DNA from: Acidisphaera sp. L21
GTDB lineage: Bacteria; Pseudomonadota; Alphaproteobacteria; Acetobacterales; Acetobacteraceae
Reading direction: 5' to 3'
DNA: 64,000 bases
Assembly: GCF_009765685.1 (NCBI RefSeq)
Contig: NZ_LMUY01000103.1
Location: 35,955-99,954 of the forward strand
The notes below the pieces were generated by a model. The model did not search any database. It was not told the origin of the DNA and worked only from the letters and a program-made list of their open reading frames with translations. A program made the translations under genes and the position numbers. Shown piece by piece: positions 37,195 to 57,168 of this stretch (position 1 is its first letter; the number at the start of each line of letters is the position of its first letter).

Positions 37195-38966
37195 ATGTTC
37201 CCCTCCGGCCCCACATCGTCGCCCTGGACGCTCCTGACCGACTGGCGGCTCCCCCGCCTGCGCCGCCGTATCGACGCCGTGTTGCTGATGCCGCGGGCGA
37301 TCGTCGCCTGCACGGTGCGCCAGGGCCGCCGGCACAGCGCGCAGGACCGCATCGCCGCCGAGGACGCCGCGTTGGACCTGCACGATTTCCACGCCGGCAG
37401 CCGCGCCCATCCAGTCATTCCCTTGCTCGTTACCATGGACGCCACCCGCAACAGCGCCAACCGCCCCCTGATGCTGCCCGGCGTCACCCCGGTCATGGAG
37501 GCGAGCGCCGCCACCCTCTCCCCCGTCCTGCAGGACATCGCCGACGCCACGCCATTCGGCCCGCCACTGCACCGGCCGAGTGGCAGAACGCGCCTTACCG
37601 TCCCGTTCCCTCGCTGATCGAGGCGGCGCGCATGCTCTACGCCCGGCATGGCGTCGCCGACATCGCCAACACGCATGCCTCGGCGCAAAACCTCACAGCC
37701 ACCCGAACCGCCATTGCCGACGCGTTCCAACAGGCAGCGTCCATCCGCCGACCAACGATAATCTTCGTCACCGGGATCCCCGGCGCCGGCAAAACCCTGT
37801 GCGGTCTGGACACCGCCTTCGCCGGCCAGGCGGCCTTCCTCACCGGCAATCCCAGCCTCGTCCACGTCCTGCGCGAGGCACTGGCCCGCGATTCGGACCT
37901 ACAATTGCGCGCCGCCCGCCAGCGCATGGAGGGCGTCATTCAAGCCCTGCCCAGTTTTCGCGACCACTACGCCAAGGACGGGATACCACCAGAACGCGTC
38001 GTGGTGATCGACGAAGCCCAGCGCTGCTGGTCCAAAGCCCATGCGGCCGCGAAAACCGCCACCAGCGCCAATCCGCTGCGCGACAGCGAGCCCGCCCTCC
38101 TGCTGGACATCATGGCGCGGCGCGACGACGGCCCGGTGCTGCTCTGCCTCATCGGCACCGGCCAGGAAATCCACGATGGCGAAGGCGGCCTCGCCGAATG
38201 GGGCATCGCCCTACGAACCCGTCCCGCCTGGTATGTGCTCGCCGCCCCCTCCGCGACCGAGGCGCCGCTCCTCCGACACCGGCTCCCCGTTCTGTCGAAC
38301 GCAGCGACCGACCCTGCCTTCCACCTCGACGTGCCCGTGCGATCGTTGCGGAATGCCGCCGCGCCTGCCTGGGTCGATGCTGTCCTCGCCGGCGACACCG
38401 AAGCGGCACGTGCCATTGCCCGTGACGGCATTCCCTTCAGCGTCACCCGCGACCTCGCCACCGCCCGCGCCCGCCTCCGCCGTGCCTGCCGCGGTACACG
38501 GCGCGCCGGGTTGCTCTGTTCGTCCGGCGCTCGCCGCCTACGGGCCGAAGGCCTCGGTGCCACCCTCCCGCATGACGACCCTGCCGCCGTCGCCCGGTGG
38601 TTCCTCGACCGCTTCCCCGACATCCGTGCCTCCGACGCGCTGGAAGTCGCAGCCACGGAGTTCTTTGCCCAAGGTCTCGAACTCGACGCCGCCGGCCTGT
38701 GCTGGGATGGCGATCTGGTTCGCGAGGCCGCCAACTGGGCCTGTCGCGCCTTCCGCGGCACGACATGGACGCGCCCGCGAAATCCCGACAAACTCGCCAA
38801 CAAGCTGAATGCTTACCGCGTGCTGCTGACCCGGGCGCGCTACGAAACCGTCATCTGGGTGCCTCCGGGGGACAACGCCGACCCAACCCGCGACCCGGAC
38901 ACGCTGAACGACATCGCCGGCTATCTGCTGTCATGCGGCGCTCATCGCCTAGGATCTCCCCGGTGA
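37195..38966 (+). pseudogene. DUF2075 (Schlafen group 3-like) helicase, frameshifted
   Basis: Relative of DUF2075 DNA/RNA helicases that is split over two frames. The first frame (from ATG 37195) encodes the family nuclease-like N-terminal part, LPRLRRRIDAVLLMPRAIVA to AHPVIPLLVTMDAT, and then goes out of frame and stops at 37617. From about 37563 the -1 frame carries on with AEWQNAPYRPVPSLIEAARM, Walker A TGIPGAGKT, the VVVIDEAQRCW motif, and the C-terminal LNAYRVLLTRARYETVIW. The break lies between about 37560 and 37580 and equals one lost base. The N-terminus also looks about 50 residues shorter than usual. A TATATT lies at 37183-37188. A sequencing error is possible. Confidence 0.75.
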
Positions 38967-49101: not shown

Positions 49102-49127
49102 CCCAGGCGGCGAAAATGCCGCGTGGG
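49102..49127. repeat. inverted repeat before fliO
   Basis: Arms CCCAGGCGGC and GCCGCGTGGG (nine of ten pairs) surround GAAAAT, just after the 97-aa gene stop and 40 bp before fliO. There is no T run, so a factor-dependent terminator, an RNA processing site or a protein-binding site are all possible. Confidence 0.5.
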
Positions 49128-49167
49128 TCACCCTGCTGCTTCCAAGGCAAAATGCCGAAAGGATGCG

Positions 49168-49437
49168 ATGAATACGACGTCGATTTTCACCGCCGTGGCA
49201 GCTCTTGCCGCCGTGCTGCTGTTAATTCTCGTGGCCGGTCGCCTCGCGCGGATGACCAAATTTGTCCGCCCGCGCGGCATCGGCGCACCGCGGATGAGCA
49301 TCCAGGATGCATTGGTGCTGGATCCCCGCCGCCGCCTGCTGATGATCGACTGCGACGGTCGCAGCCTCCTGCTGCTCACCGGGCCGCAGGATCAGGTGGT
49401 CGGCTGGCTCCCGCCCCAGGCGGAGCCGATGGCATGA
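49168..49437 (+). CDS. fliO: flagellar biosynthesis protein FliO
   Basis: Small membrane protein (89 aa) that helps assemble the FliP ring. One N-terminal helix (VAALAAVLLLILVAGRLARM) is followed by a basic stretch and a short domain ALVLDPRRRLLMIDCDGRSL with LLLTGPQDQVVGWL, the FliO domain pattern. The start at 49168 has an AAAGGA upstream. It overlaps fliP by four bases (ATGA). The open frame to its left is a shadow of flgC/flgB. Confidence 0.85.
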   Translation: MNTTSIFTAVAALAAVLLLILVAGRLARMTKFVRPRGIGAPRMSIQDALVLDPRRRLLMIDCDGRSLLLLTGPQDQVVGWLPPQAEPMA

Positions 49438-50210
49438 AGGCCGCGCCTCTGAAACACTGCGCCACCTGGCGCAATGCCATGATGTGGCTCGTCTTTGGCG
49501 TGCTGCTGTTCATTGCCTCCCCGGCCATCGCCCAGTCCGTCAGCATCGATCTGGGTGCCGCCGGGCAAAACGGTGCCACGGGACGGCTGATCCAGCTCAC
49601 CGCGCTCATCACGGTCCTGTCCATCGCGCCGAGTCTGCTGGTGATGGTCACGGCGTTCACACGAATCGTGATCGTCTTATCGCTGCTGCGTTCCGCCATT
49701 GGCGCCCAGGGCGTGCCGCCCAACACGGTGCTTATTGGCCTGGCCCTGTTCCTGACCTTTTTTGTCATGCAGCCAGTGCTGGACCAATCCTACACCAACG
49801 GTCTGCTGCCCATGAGCGACGGTCGCGTCGGCGAGTTGGAGGGCTTGCGCCTGGCCGCCGAGCCATTTCGCCACTTCATGGCCGTCAACGTACGCGGCAA
49901 CGACCTGCAGCTTTTCCTGGACATCGCCCACCTGCCCCCAGCCGCCAACGCAGACGGCGCCCCATGGCGCGCCCTGGTCCCCGCCTTCATGATCGGCGAG
50001 CTACGCCGGGCGTTCGAGATGGGGTTCCTGCTATACCTGCCATTCCTCGTCATCGACATGGTCGTCGGCAGTGTGCTGATGAGCCTGGGCATGATGATGC
50101 TACCGCCTGCCAGCATCAGCCTGCCGTTCAAGCTGATCTTCTTCGTGCTGGTCGATGGGTGGCGTCTGGTATCCGGCAGCCTTGTGCAGGGATTTGCCGG
50201 CGGGGGCTGA
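49434..50210 (+). CDS. fliP: flagellar export protein FliP
   Basis: Main export-gate ring subunit (258 aa) with a cleavable signal (MMWLVFGVLLFIASPAIAQS) and four membrane helices. Conserved blocks are LLVMVTAFTRIVIVLSLLRS, IGAQGVPPNTVLIGLALFLT, ALVPAFMIGELRRAFEMGF, and the end LPFKLIFFVLVDGWRLVSGS. It is coupled to fliO and oriented against the fliQ-fliR-flhB genes. Confidence 0.97.
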   Translation: MKAAPLKHCATWRNAMMWLVFGVLLFIASPAIAQSVSIDLGAAGQNGATGRLIQLTALITVLSIAPSLLVMVTAFTRIVIVLSLLRSAIGAQGVPPNTVLIGLALFLTFFVMQPVLDQSYTNGLLPMSDGRVGELEGLRLAAEPFRHFMAVNVRGNDLQLFLDIAHLPPAANADGAPWRALVPAFMIGELRRAFEMGFLLYLPFLVIDMVVGSVLMSLGMMMLPPASISLPFKLIFFVLVDGWRLVSGSLVQGFAGGG

Positions 50211-50264: not shown

Positions 50265-50537
50265 GTGAAACAGCCCCATACCGAGCAGTCGATCGACCAC
50301 ACCGACGGCCAGCAGAACACCGGCAACCACCCAGCACCCGGCGCCACGAAGACGCCGGGTGGCACACGCATCGGCGCCAAGAATGTCGAAACCGATCGCG
50401 ATACCCGCGAGGAGTCTGTCGAGATCGGCACCGACGTGGACAAAGTCACGGGTCTGGATGAGGTCAACACCAGCACGAAGCAGGTGGACAATCCCCGCGA
50501 GCGTCATCCGGAGCGGGACGAACACGGGCGGCTGTAA
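50265..50537 (+). CDS. small hydrophilic protein, unknown
   Basis: A 90-aa, highly charged protein without hydrophobic stretches (for example VETDRDTREESVEIGTDVDK and VDNPRERHPERDEHGRL), probably disordered. The GTG start at 50265 is supported by AAAGGAG at good spacing. The open frame begins at an ATG at 50244. I know no family for it. It lies 54 bp after fliP. Its stop is inside a 15-bp palindrome. Confidence 0.55.
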   Translation: MKQPHTEQSIDHTDGQQNTGNHPAPGATKTPGGTRIGAKNVETDRDTREESVEIGTDVDKVTGLDEVNTSTKQVDNPRERHPERDEHGRL

Positions 50538-50543
50538 TACAGC
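50529..50543. repeat. palindrome across the small-gene stop codon
   Basis: GGCTGTA-A-TACAGCC, seven-base arms around one base, with the TAA stop of the small gene in its centre. No T run follows. It may be a weak 3' end structure. Confidence 0.5.
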
Positions 50544-50550
50544 CAGTCGA

Positions 50551-50777
50551 TCGGCCGCCGCCCTGCAACCCGTGTCCTAACGGGGGCTTTCCCCCAGGCC
50601 ACACAGCCATTGCTGGCGCGGACCGCGAGTAGAACCGGAGAAGCGAGCGACGGCCGAACACACGACAACCGGCCGTCGCTCTGCAACCCGTGTTCCAACG
50701 GAGGCTTTCCTCCTGGCCACGCAGCCATTTCTGGCGCGGACCGCGAGTAGAACCGGAGAAGCGAGCGACGGCCGAAC
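50551..50777 (-). ncRNA. tandem pair of structured repeats, possible small RNA
   Basis: Two units with a 118-bp period (97-bp cores 50563-50659 and 50681-50777, 90 of 97 bases equal) fill most of the 304-bp gap between the small gene and speE. On the minus strand each unit can form a closing stem. In the unit at 50670-50774 it is 12 perfect pairs (CGGCCGTCGCTC with GAGCGACGGCCG). Inside it are a GCCA-GNAA-TGGC hairpin whose loop is GCAA in one unit and GAAA in the other, and a GG(G/A)GG-AAAG-CC(C/T)CC hairpin whose middle pair changes on both sides together. No promoter was identified. It could also be a dispersed DNA repeat. Confidence 0.55.
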
Positions 50778-50841
50778 CAACTAACGAAGCATCGTCGGGA
50801 GCGGGGAAATAGTCTACCGCCCCCTGTAATACAACCCTTAT

Positions 50842-51693
50842 CTAGCGCAGCACTCGCGAAATATATGGCGGCAGCGCAAACGCGCCACGATGGACTGCTG
50901 GCGTCCAGTATTCGGTATCGCCGAACATTCCCGCAGACTTCGCGCGCGACTCCAAAACGGCCGCCGGAACATCCTCGATCGGCATGTCGCTGGCGATGCC
51001 CAGGGCCATGAAGCCACCGACATAGGTCGGCACCGCTGCAACATAGGCGCCGACATGGGCGAACACACGGGCCCGCAATGCGCTGGTATCGCGCAGCTCA
51101 TCACTCTGCATGAACGGCACGCCACACTGGTTTACCAGCAGCCCGCCAGGCCGCAGGATTCGCGCGCAATTACGATAAAACGCCTCGGTAAACAGCGACG
51201 CGCCTGGTCCCGCCGGATCGGTGCTGTCGACGATGATGACGTCGACCGAGGCCGAGAGCGCCGCAGCAACATAGGCAATGCCGTCGCCAACGATCACCTC
51301 TGCCCGCACGTCATCCCACGCGCCCCCACCAATACCCGGCAGATGTTCGCGTGCTAGCCGGATTACCGCGCCGTCGATCTCGACCATGACCGCGTGCGTC
51401 ACGCCGCGATGCTGCAACACCCGCCGCAAAACCCCGCCATCGCCAGCGCCGATGATCAGGACCCTATCCGCAGCCCCATGCTGCAACAGGGGCACGTGGG
51501 TTATCATTTCCTGGTAGGCGAATTCATCCGCCTCGGTAATCTGCACCACGCCATCCAGCAGCAGAACGCGCCCGTGCGATGTCGTTTCTACCACGACGAT
51601 GTCCTGAAACGCCGAGGTTTCGCGCGCGATTTCCCGCACGACATCGAAGCTCTGCGCCCATCCGGGATATAGATTTTCTGCAAGCCAGGTCAT
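50842..51693 (-). CDS. speE: spermidine synthase SpeE
   Basis: Aminopropyltransferase (283 aa) making spermidine from putrescine and decarboxylated S-adenosylmethionine. Key blocks are LLLDGVVQITEADEFAYQEM, the nucleotide loop VLIIGAGDGGVLRRVLQH, VDVIIVDSTDPAGPGASLF (catalytic Asp region) and LLVNQCGVPFMQ. AAGGA lies ten bases before the ATG. It is downstream of speD on the same strand across a 150-bp gap with two hairpins. Confidence 0.97.
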   Translation of the reverse strand: MTWLAENLYPGWAQSFDVVREIARETSAFQDIVVVETTSHGRVLLLDGVVQITEADEFAYQEMITHVPLLQHGAADRVLIIGAGDGGVLRRVLQHRGVTHAVMVEIDGAVIRLAREHLPGIGGGAWDDVRAEVIVGDGIAYVAAALSASVDVIIVDSTDPAGPGASLFTEAFYRNCARILRPGGLLVNQCGVPFMQSDELRDTSALRARVFAHVGAYVAAVPTYVGGFMALGIASDMPIEDVPAAVLESRAKSAGMFGDTEYWTPAVHRGAFALPPYISRVLR

Positions 51694-51843: not shown

Positions 51844-52308
51844 CTAGAACCTGCCGCGACGCTGCTCGTCCAGGTCTACCCGACCCGGCGAGAAGGCGTC
51901 CTGCAGCACTGGGATCGCATCATGTGGGTTGCAATCACCACACATGAAAATATCGATCGCAGCAAACTGGCGCTCGGGCCAGGTGTGGATTGAGATGTGG
52001 CTCTCCGCCAACACGACCACGCCCGACACTCCGCCATTTGGCGAAAAGTGATGGAAATGGCTGTGCAGGATCGTTGCCCCCGCACGCACGGCAGCGGCCC
52101 GCAGGGCCGTGTCGATATGCACGGGATCGGCTAGATTTTCCGCGTCCCACAAATCCGCCAGAAGGTGAGTCCCGGCAAATTTCATGCCGTCCTTCTCAAC
52201 GAAGTAATCCTTCCGATCCTCTCCCTCGAAAACAGGAAGAGTCGCGATTGTCGTCTGGTTCTCGCTCGGAAGCTCCGAGACCATCCCCAGTTGAGCAAGT
52301 GCGTTCAT
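51844..52308 (-). CDS. speD: S-adenosylmethionine decarboxylase proenzyme SpeD
   Basis: Self-cleaving, pyruvoyl-dependent S-adenosylmethionine decarboxylase of the bacterial class (154 aa). The cleavage site is Glu102/Ser103 in LAESHISIHTWPE, and MCGDCNPHDA carries the conserved catalytic Cys region. HSHFHHFSPNGGVSG precedes it. The start is MNALAQLGM (52308). The open frame above it runs on for 19 codons without likeness. It supplies the aminopropyl donor for SpeE. Confidence 0.96.
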   Translation of the reverse strand: MNALAQLGMVSELPSENQTTIATLPVFEGEDRKDYFVEKDGMKFAGTHLLADLWDAENLADPVHIDTALRAAAVRAGATILHSHFHHFSPNGGVSGVVVLAESHISIHTWPERQFAAIDIFMCGDCNPHDAIPVLQDAFSPGRVDLDEQRRGRF

Positions 52309-52440
52309 CACGTACCCCCAAACCAGTAGACAGCCTGTTGGACGCGGCGCGTCCCCTTGGGCCAAGGTGGCGTGAGATAGTCCCCCGGCATCGCGGGCGC
52401 AAGTCCTAATGCTTGCTCCCGCGACATAGCTGGGGCGAAT

Positions 52441-56412: not shown

Positions 56413-57168
56413 TCAGCCCGCGCCCTGATGGTCCGGGGGCGGCAGTGTGGTGGAGCGGGTTCGCTGAGCTGCCAGTTGCGTCGTGGCGAGGCGGGCCCGA
56501 TCGGGCTGCATCGCACCAAGCACCAAGGCTGCCTTCGCGTCCTTCATCCGGTCCAACACATGAAGCAGCACAGGCATTTCCATATCGTTAAAAATTGCGG
56601 CGGCTTCACGAGGCTTCATCGTCTCGTAAACCTTTACCAGCCCGGTCCAGTTCGCCTCGTCATGGTCCTGACGCTCCTTCTCCAGCGTCTCCAACCGGGT
56701 TTGCAGGGCGGTTAATTCACCCACGCGCGCGCTTAACTTCTGCTCGGCTGCCGCCATCACGGCTTCGCGCTGGTTCAGCGCCTGCGCCCGCGCATCCAGC
56801 TCCTGCCGCCGGCCGCGCAGGTCCTGCAGCAACTGCTTCTCGGCATCGCTGACCATCGGTTGGGGCGGTGCGCTCGGCTCCCGCGGTGCACTCGGGACCG
56901 ATGGTTTGGCGTACGGGCTGGCACTGGCAGTCCGCTCCACACCCGCTTTGGCCGCATCCTTCGCGTCGCCAGGCTTCGCCGCACCATGCGCGTCCGCTGG
57001 TTTCGCCGCCGCATCTTCATGCGCCGGCGCCGCTTCGGCGGATGACACGACGCTGCCAACGGGAAGGAACGCCAGACCCAACGTTACCGTCTTGGTCGCC
57101 ATCAGCAGCCCCATCATGCCGAGCGTCGCCGGTAGCAGCCGCGGCTTCAACGTCCAGCCGTTCATCAC
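56413..57168 (-). CDS. MotE-like flagellar motility protein
   Basis: A 251-aa membrane or exported protein with an N-terminal hydrophobic segment (ATLGMMGLLMATKTVTLGLA), an Ala/Lys/Pro linker (about 45-105), a coiled coil (about 108-165, EKQLLQDLRGRRQELDARAQ) and a C-terminal MgtE_N-like part (LVKVYETMKPREAAAIFNDM). This is the plan of MotE/FlbB-type proteins, which guide stator assembly in alphaproteobacteria. It is coupled to the DUF6468 gene by ATGA. Confidence 0.8.
   Translation of the reverse strand: MMNGWTLKPRLLPATLGMMGLLMATKTVTLGLAFLPVGSVVSSAEAAPAHEDAAAKPADAHGAAKPGDAKDAAKAGVERTASASPYAKPSVPSAPREPSAPPQPMVSDAEKQLLQDLRGRRQELDARAQALNQREAVMAAAEQKLSARVGELTALQTRLETLEKERQDHDEANWTGLVKVYETMKPREAAAIFNDMEMPVLLHVLDRMKDAKAALVLGAMQPDRARLATTQLAAQRTRSTTLPPPDHQGAG

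Follow-up and report, generated by a model that had tools for sequence, protein, structure and literature searches.

A tandem RNA element behind the spermidine synthase gene of Acidisphaera sp. L21 and of most sampled Roseomonas species

The window, by which we mean the whole 64,000-nucleotide stretch of DNA analysed here, contains an array of two repeat units lying between convergent genes. The polyamine genes speE and speD are on the minus strand, and an open frame containing fliP and a second frame encoding a hydrophilic product of 90 amino acids are on the plus strand:

49116..50210, plus strand: open frame containing fliP (Pfam match, residues 164-356), convergent toward the array
50265..50537, plus strand: 90-aa open frame in the interval between fliP and the array, without Pfam match
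50842..51693, minus strand: speE, spermidine synthase (Pfam Spermine_synth, E 4.6e-50)
51844..52365, minus strand: speD, S-adenosylmethionine decarboxylase, upstream of speE (Pfam AdoMet_dc, E 6.8e-36)

Unit 2, the first behind speE, starts 67 nt past the speE stop codon on the speE sense strand. The array has the following parts:

50763..50774, minus strand: unit 2 outer stem, 5' arm, pairing with 50670-50681 in 12 perfect pairs
50748..50756, minus strand: unit 2 second stem, 5' side, with 50688-50697 as partner
50715..50742, minus strand: unit 2 hairpin A with a GAAA loop (GCAA in unit 1), not conserved beyond the window
50700..50713, minus strand: unit 2 hairpin B, site of an A-U to G-C change (50711/50702 versus 50593/50584)
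50670..50681, minus strand: unit 2 outer stem, 3' arm
50670..50774, minus strand: unit 2 as a whole, 105 nt, three-way-junction fold, covariance match
50657..50669, minus strand: spacer and T-rich tract after unit 2, 5 T among the first 10 bases
50552..50656, minus strand: unit 1, the second behind speE, 105 nt, folded as unit 2, covariance match

The direct copies (50552-50659 and 50670-50777) extend over 108 nt with 92% identity at a spacing of 118, which bears out the two-copy repeat described in an earlier note on this DNA. That note counted seven differences in 97 bp; the 105-nt units differ at nine positions on the minus strand, and seven fits when two changes in the 3' outer arm are omitted. 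The GCCA/TGGC stem closing a GCAA or GAAA loop is present as described, as is the paired change from G-C (50584/50593) to A-T (50702/50711). The long outer stems were likewise found, with 12 perfect pairs in 50670-50774 and, in 50552-50656, two G-U pairs among the 12 on the minus strand. Compared with shuffled sequences, the minus strands of the two units fold with z-scores of -4.2 and -6.1 and the plus strands with -1.5 and -4.5, the plus strand of unit 2 being unusually stable as well because the unit is nearly a palindrome. By blastn and covariance model, the genome of the window bacterium (6.38 Mb, 162 contigs) contains these two copies and no others.

Set against the minus-strand fold of unit 2, two of the nine differences are unpaired, two make up the compensatory pair and the remaining five are single changes that all swap G-U and Watson-Crick pairs, so that 7/7 differences at paired sites retain the fold. 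The minus fold of unit 1 has one extra pair that is absent in unit 2. Five pairs of the unit 2 plus fold are absent from unit 1; the unit 1 plus fold loses just one, since most of the changed sites are unpaired in it. When the same substitutions were placed at random, 824 of 20,000 placements broke no pair of the unit 2 minus fold (observed, 0 broken), and 57 of 20,000 broke at most one pair of the unit 1 fold (observed, one). At the former rate the two copies alone are suggestive, and the case therefore rests on homologues.

A blastn search of 397 family genomes with the unit as query recovered the two copies in the window and, elsewhere, seven short matches, of which six overlap long open reading frames. 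The exception, a 25-bp match of 92% to part of the unit (L020, 1501-1525, genome G285), lies outside long frames and has no visible second stem. Homologues were revealed by covariance models only, as the nucleotide search alone missed them. A model of the two window units (R1) found a syntenic copy in another genus between fliP and speE (G081, 62.4 bits) and, when run without filters on speE loci, three tandem copies in the fliP-speE interval of a genome taken to be Roseomonas rosea (G003), which are individually weak (E 0.0024 to 0.049) and made clear by their folds. A second model (R2), based on an alignment of 33 of the 35 units (A3; one unit each of G158 and G235 omitted), was used to survey the 397 family genomes with strict filters and nine candidates scored per genome. 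This search of related genomes, which the earlier note had proposed, yielded 35 units in 15 genomes belonging to 3 of 102 genera. In these 15 genomes each of the 35 units is encoded on the same strand as speE and lies 25-472 nt past its last aligned base, a context absent from the earlier note. Because the units are near-palindromic, both models give some of them a second, weaker score on the opposite strand. Weak R1 matches away from speE in G205 (E 0.22) and G140 (E 0.84) were set aside, R2 giving none in either genome up to E 1, and an R2 match in G382 (E 0.98) was treated as noise.

Within the genus of Roseomonas rosea the element is present in 14 of 15 genomes, with 1-5 copies each (150 candidates scored per genome). 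The one genome without a unit, G358, has a gap of 63 nt between its speE and fliP matches (L088); it sits inside an element-bearing clade and so looks like a loss. A class-wide sample of 337 genomes, searched with strict filters and 11 candidates scored per genome, gave a match in the window's own genome only. A pattern scan of GTDB (84,980 species, one genome each), derived from Roseomonas units and blind to the window's own type, returned nine records, eight of them from Roseomonas or Pararoseomonas, all eight with units directly behind speE; the ninth, from Frankia, has no speE, speD or fliP match at the locus and was put down to chance. A diverged form of the element was sought by running R2 unfiltered on 44 loci behind speE, and nothing appeared below E 0.1 (41 loci of the family, including G358, and 4 of other families, a tally that includes L034 with a downstream part of 10 nt; three positive controls are uncounted).

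Mapped onto a 67-row SpeE tree, the element requires five state changes. It occupies most of one Roseomonas clade, and the window's genome and G081 stand apart from that clade, a pattern which suggests that the element either is old, with losses, or has moved. The SpeE of the window (50842-51693, minus strand) has an unusually long branch in this tree (0.93 against a median of 0.11) and groups with that of G107, a genome without the element. An association with fliP instead of speE was considered and rejected: four Roseomonas genomes (G101, G158, G235 and G311) keep the array with no fliP match in the examined 1.5 kb and no unit elsewhere. In G101 the gene after the array, on the same strand, is a putative radA. 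In five Roseomonas genomes (loci L038, L078, L080, L086 and L089) the last unit has in common an outer stem with CATGC/GCATG, unlike the first units. Judged from this, tandem copies seem to hold their own identity across species, with no homogenisation.

The units share a common anatomy. An outer stem of 11-12 bp, ending in CGGCCG in nearly all units, is followed by a second stem of about 9 bp with a single bulged purine on its 3' side; in unit 2 of the window this is base 50691, and a purine is maintained there in the homologues. In Roseomonas the second stem could be placed in 29 of 30 units and starts 17-18 nt from the 5' end; the distance from its 3' side to the end of the unit is 14-15 nt, apart from seven rows that were parsed at a second tail motif and whose gap and tail lengths are off by 8 as a result. 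Unit length ranges from 78 to 114 nt and varies mainly in the upper part. The window and G081 both have a three-way junction there, which includes a GNRA hairpin in the window and lacks it in G081; the three G003 units form a single long hairpin. The GNRA loop to which the earlier note had drawn attention is thus a trait of the window units and not of the family, as the folded units of G081 and Roseomonas do not have that hairpin. Hairpin B recurs in G081 with a further compensatory change.

Behind the units there is a pyrimidine-rich tract. The ten bases after the 33 aligned units are 85% pyrimidine and 45% T (49% and 15% in the flanks), with at least 4 T in 8 after 21 of the 33 (4.5% at random positions) and at least 5 T after nine (1%); the tail of unit 1 in the window is exceptional, with 2 T in 10. 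The ten bases before the first unit contain at most 3 A at 14 of 15 loci (5 A in G081), and in the absence of A-richness there is no matching tail for the opposite strand. A scan for canonical short terminators (a compact hairpin with a loop of 3-8 nt, then a tract) found nothing at the window array, nor at any of the 15 element loci within 200 nt of the speE stop. Such terminators are rare at speE loci without the element too (3/39), so that 0/15 is no evidence by itself. At one locus without the element (L036, G010) a classic terminator hairpin and T run can be seen by eye behind speE, uncounted in the scan because the T run pairs into the stem.

In the alignment A3, which was made blind to structure, 95.6% of 956 cells pair and 15 of 29 pairs show two-sided change. 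The covariation score is 0.409, compared with 0.207 for shuffled alignments (0/500 as high) and 0.05-0.13 for slid partners. On a tree of the 33 units about 21.6 paired changes kept pairing, against a null mean of 1.7 and a maximum of 5 in 100 null alignments, and about 48 single changes kept pairing and about 14 broke it (null, 33 and 52); the tree derives from this alignment too, and the units within an array are paralogues. The earlier note had named homologues that break the stems as often as they keep them as what would speak against selection on a folded minus-strand RNA in tandem copies; across all 29 pairs, pairing survived about 70 change events and was lost in about 15, and the homologues support the claim. 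In the 22 pairs of the outer stems, 48 events kept pairing (18 paired, 30 single) and five broke it. A strict test of all 3,570 column pairs placed two structure pairs at the top (E 0.033) with no others at 0.05, and when it was restricted to the 29 structure pairs five passed at 0.05. Seven of the 29 pairs are invariant and uninformative either way. In the three units that form a three-way junction, those of the window and G081, 7/33 pairs have two-sided changes and 99% of cells are paired, a count that excludes the inner hairpin A because it does not align.

The strand of the fold can be read from the same changes. In the outer stems a Watson-Crick pair turned into G-U 16 times and into A-C 0 times, and over all 29 pairs the figures are 26.5 and 3.6 (null, 23.5 and 17.3); a slight G-U excess is expected from the null alone, and C-to-T mutation on the transcribed strand could add to it. 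This asymmetry of G-U over A-C points to the speE-sense RNA as the folding strand. Base-pair covariation beyond phylogeny, the mark of a conserved structured RNA, was found, and on this evidence the fold is under selection on the speE-sense strand. Rfam 15 gave 0 matches at gathering score in the whole window and eight related loci (best sub-threshold match to the array, E 0.79), in agreement with the earlier statement that no known RNA family fits. Among the open-licence PubMed Central papers listed in literature searches, none describes in its title or displayed abstract an RNA element behind speE or a structured Roseomonas RNA, although absence is not proven by this.

Read from sequence, selection on the fold, the speE-sense strand, a position 3' of speE for every copy found, variable copy number, the lack of an Rfam match and the U/C-rich tracts are established. 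For the function, we see about an even chance that the units are a gene-locked, tandem, terminator-like module of the 3' untranslated region that forms and protects the end of the speDE mRNA. Both units would lie in the transcript of speD and speE, within its 3' untranslated region, and each is a self-contained module of outer stem, bulged second stem, variable upper part and pyrimidine- or U-rich tract, and the modules would act in series as terminator-like 3'-end structures. Either RNA polymerase would exit at one of the hairpins or the transcript would be shortened as far as that hairpin, after which the high stability of the stems would bar 3'-to-5' decay. The outcome would be a fixed 3' end and lifetime of the speDE mRNA and the prevention of run-on into the next gene. 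That the bulged lower stem is conserved suggests additional recognition by a protein or ribonuclease.

Several features count against a terminator-like role. Intrinsic (Rho-independent) terminators, which also occur in tandem, resemble the element in having a GC-rich hairpin and a U/C-rich tract at the 3' end and on the strand of the gene, but the element is 78-114 nt long, has a bulged two-stem core, variable apical domains and strong covariation, and comes in 1-5 copies locked to one gene, with no short loop and mostly no clean U run. The units are far larger than the usual terminator hairpin, a plain terminator requires neither a bulged core nor a covarying upper part, and G358, of the same genus, manages without the element. 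The 3'-terminal stem-loops of selective RNA processing and stabilisation in Clostridium cellulolyticum are also stable structures at gene 3' ends, thought to set transcript abundance (PMC4423207); the stem-loops dealt with there are many and different, whereas here one homologous family stands behind one gene.

The main rival to such a 3'-end module is that the units are sibling sRNAs, cut from the speE 3' untranslated region by RNase E or RNase III; they would regulate other mRNAs in trans, and a chaperone would bind their U/C-rich tail. Their size of 78-114 nt, the 3'-UTR position, the U/C-rich tracts, the speE-sense strand and the tandem siblings would all suit this, and RNase E and RNase III are known to generate sRNAs from the 3' ends of mRNAs, as a published review sets out (PMC9438474). 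The 3'-UTR-derived sRNAs described there are likewise structured RNAs of similar size; the element differs in having up to five tandem copies and in that its conserved part is the closing stem, and it is known here from DNA sequence. The would-be seed region, in the upper part, varies in length and fold between genera, and the conserved portion consists of the paired lower stems. We regard processed sRNAs as somewhat unlikely, though a serious contender.

Doubtful in our judgement is a wider claim, that the units found a new cis-acting class of 3'-UTR RNA. Polyamine level, or else a dedicated RNA-binding protein or ribonuclease, would read the tandem bulged-stem modules, and these would determine where the speDE mRNA ends and how long it lasts, with copy number as an evolutionary dial. 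A polyamine-sensing role would be attractive. In a related reading the units are cis recognition sites, bulged stems of about 20 bp read by RNase III or a polyamine-dependent factor that controls speDE mRNA decay as a feedback on spermidine synthesis. The lower stem is kept, the bulge is fixed and the element occurs only behind a polyamine gene, all of which such sites would explain, and spermidine-sensing RNAs exist in bacteria (PMC10853860). The known spermidine riboswitches, SAM-I variants acting by premature termination (PMC10853860), are also RNA structures tied to spermidine synthesis genes; however, they act in front of genes, and the element has a different fold and a 3' instead of a 5' position. 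The element is moreover absent from other speE-bearing genomes, and we consider recognition sites of this kind improbable. Membership in the spermidine riboswitches themselves was rejected, as there is no SAM-family match at gathering score and the units are 3' of speE.

A DNA-level palindromic or mobile repeat (REP- or MITE-like) that stands behind speE by accident would account for the near-palindromic ends (CGGCCG), the tandem copies and the good fold of the plus strand of unit 2. Dispersed palindromic repeats such as REP/BIME are, as generally described, also near-palindromic intergenic units that form tandem clusters at 3' ends, but they have many copies at many intergenic sites per genome, and the element was found at one locus per genome in 15/15 genomes with matches. 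There are no dispersed copies: the window's genome has its two, and all units are at speE in the 14 Roseomonas genomes (150 candidates scored in each). The asymmetry between G-U and A-C also favours an RNA of one strand, and a DNA repeat is very improbable. A functionless chance duplication of a GC-rich intergenic stretch, with which the pattern in the window would be at most moderately at odds given the placements that break no pair, has next to no probability in view of the same-locus homologues in other genera and their covarying stems. A plasmid or phage origin was rejected by blastn using window DNA only. The RNA repeats of type III toxin-antitoxin systems were also weighed, and no toxin-like gene was noticed.

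Bacterial regulatory RNAs with a defined structure are for the most part known as 5' leaders or free sRNAs. It is unusual for a covarying RNA family to be tied to the region 3' of a single metabolic gene, where it has 1-5 tandem copies, and to lack an Rfam match. As polyamine synthesis is widespread, a layer of 3'-UTR control on speDE would, if true, be of general interest. The element offers a compact test of whether a conserved 3'-UTR structure controls an mRNA and why its copies multiply, and the function of this new RNA element, behind the spermidine synthase gene in the window bacterium and most sampled Roseomonas species, is now testable.

The DNA of the window has some further repeats. 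The array is bracketed by a 13-nt direct repeat with one mismatch (50532-50544, CTGTAATACAGCC; 50824-50836, CTGTAATACAACC), the core of which is itself palindromic and which may be due to chance. Two other short tandem repeats, with periods of 22 and 27, lie at 37305-37350 and 56951-57009.
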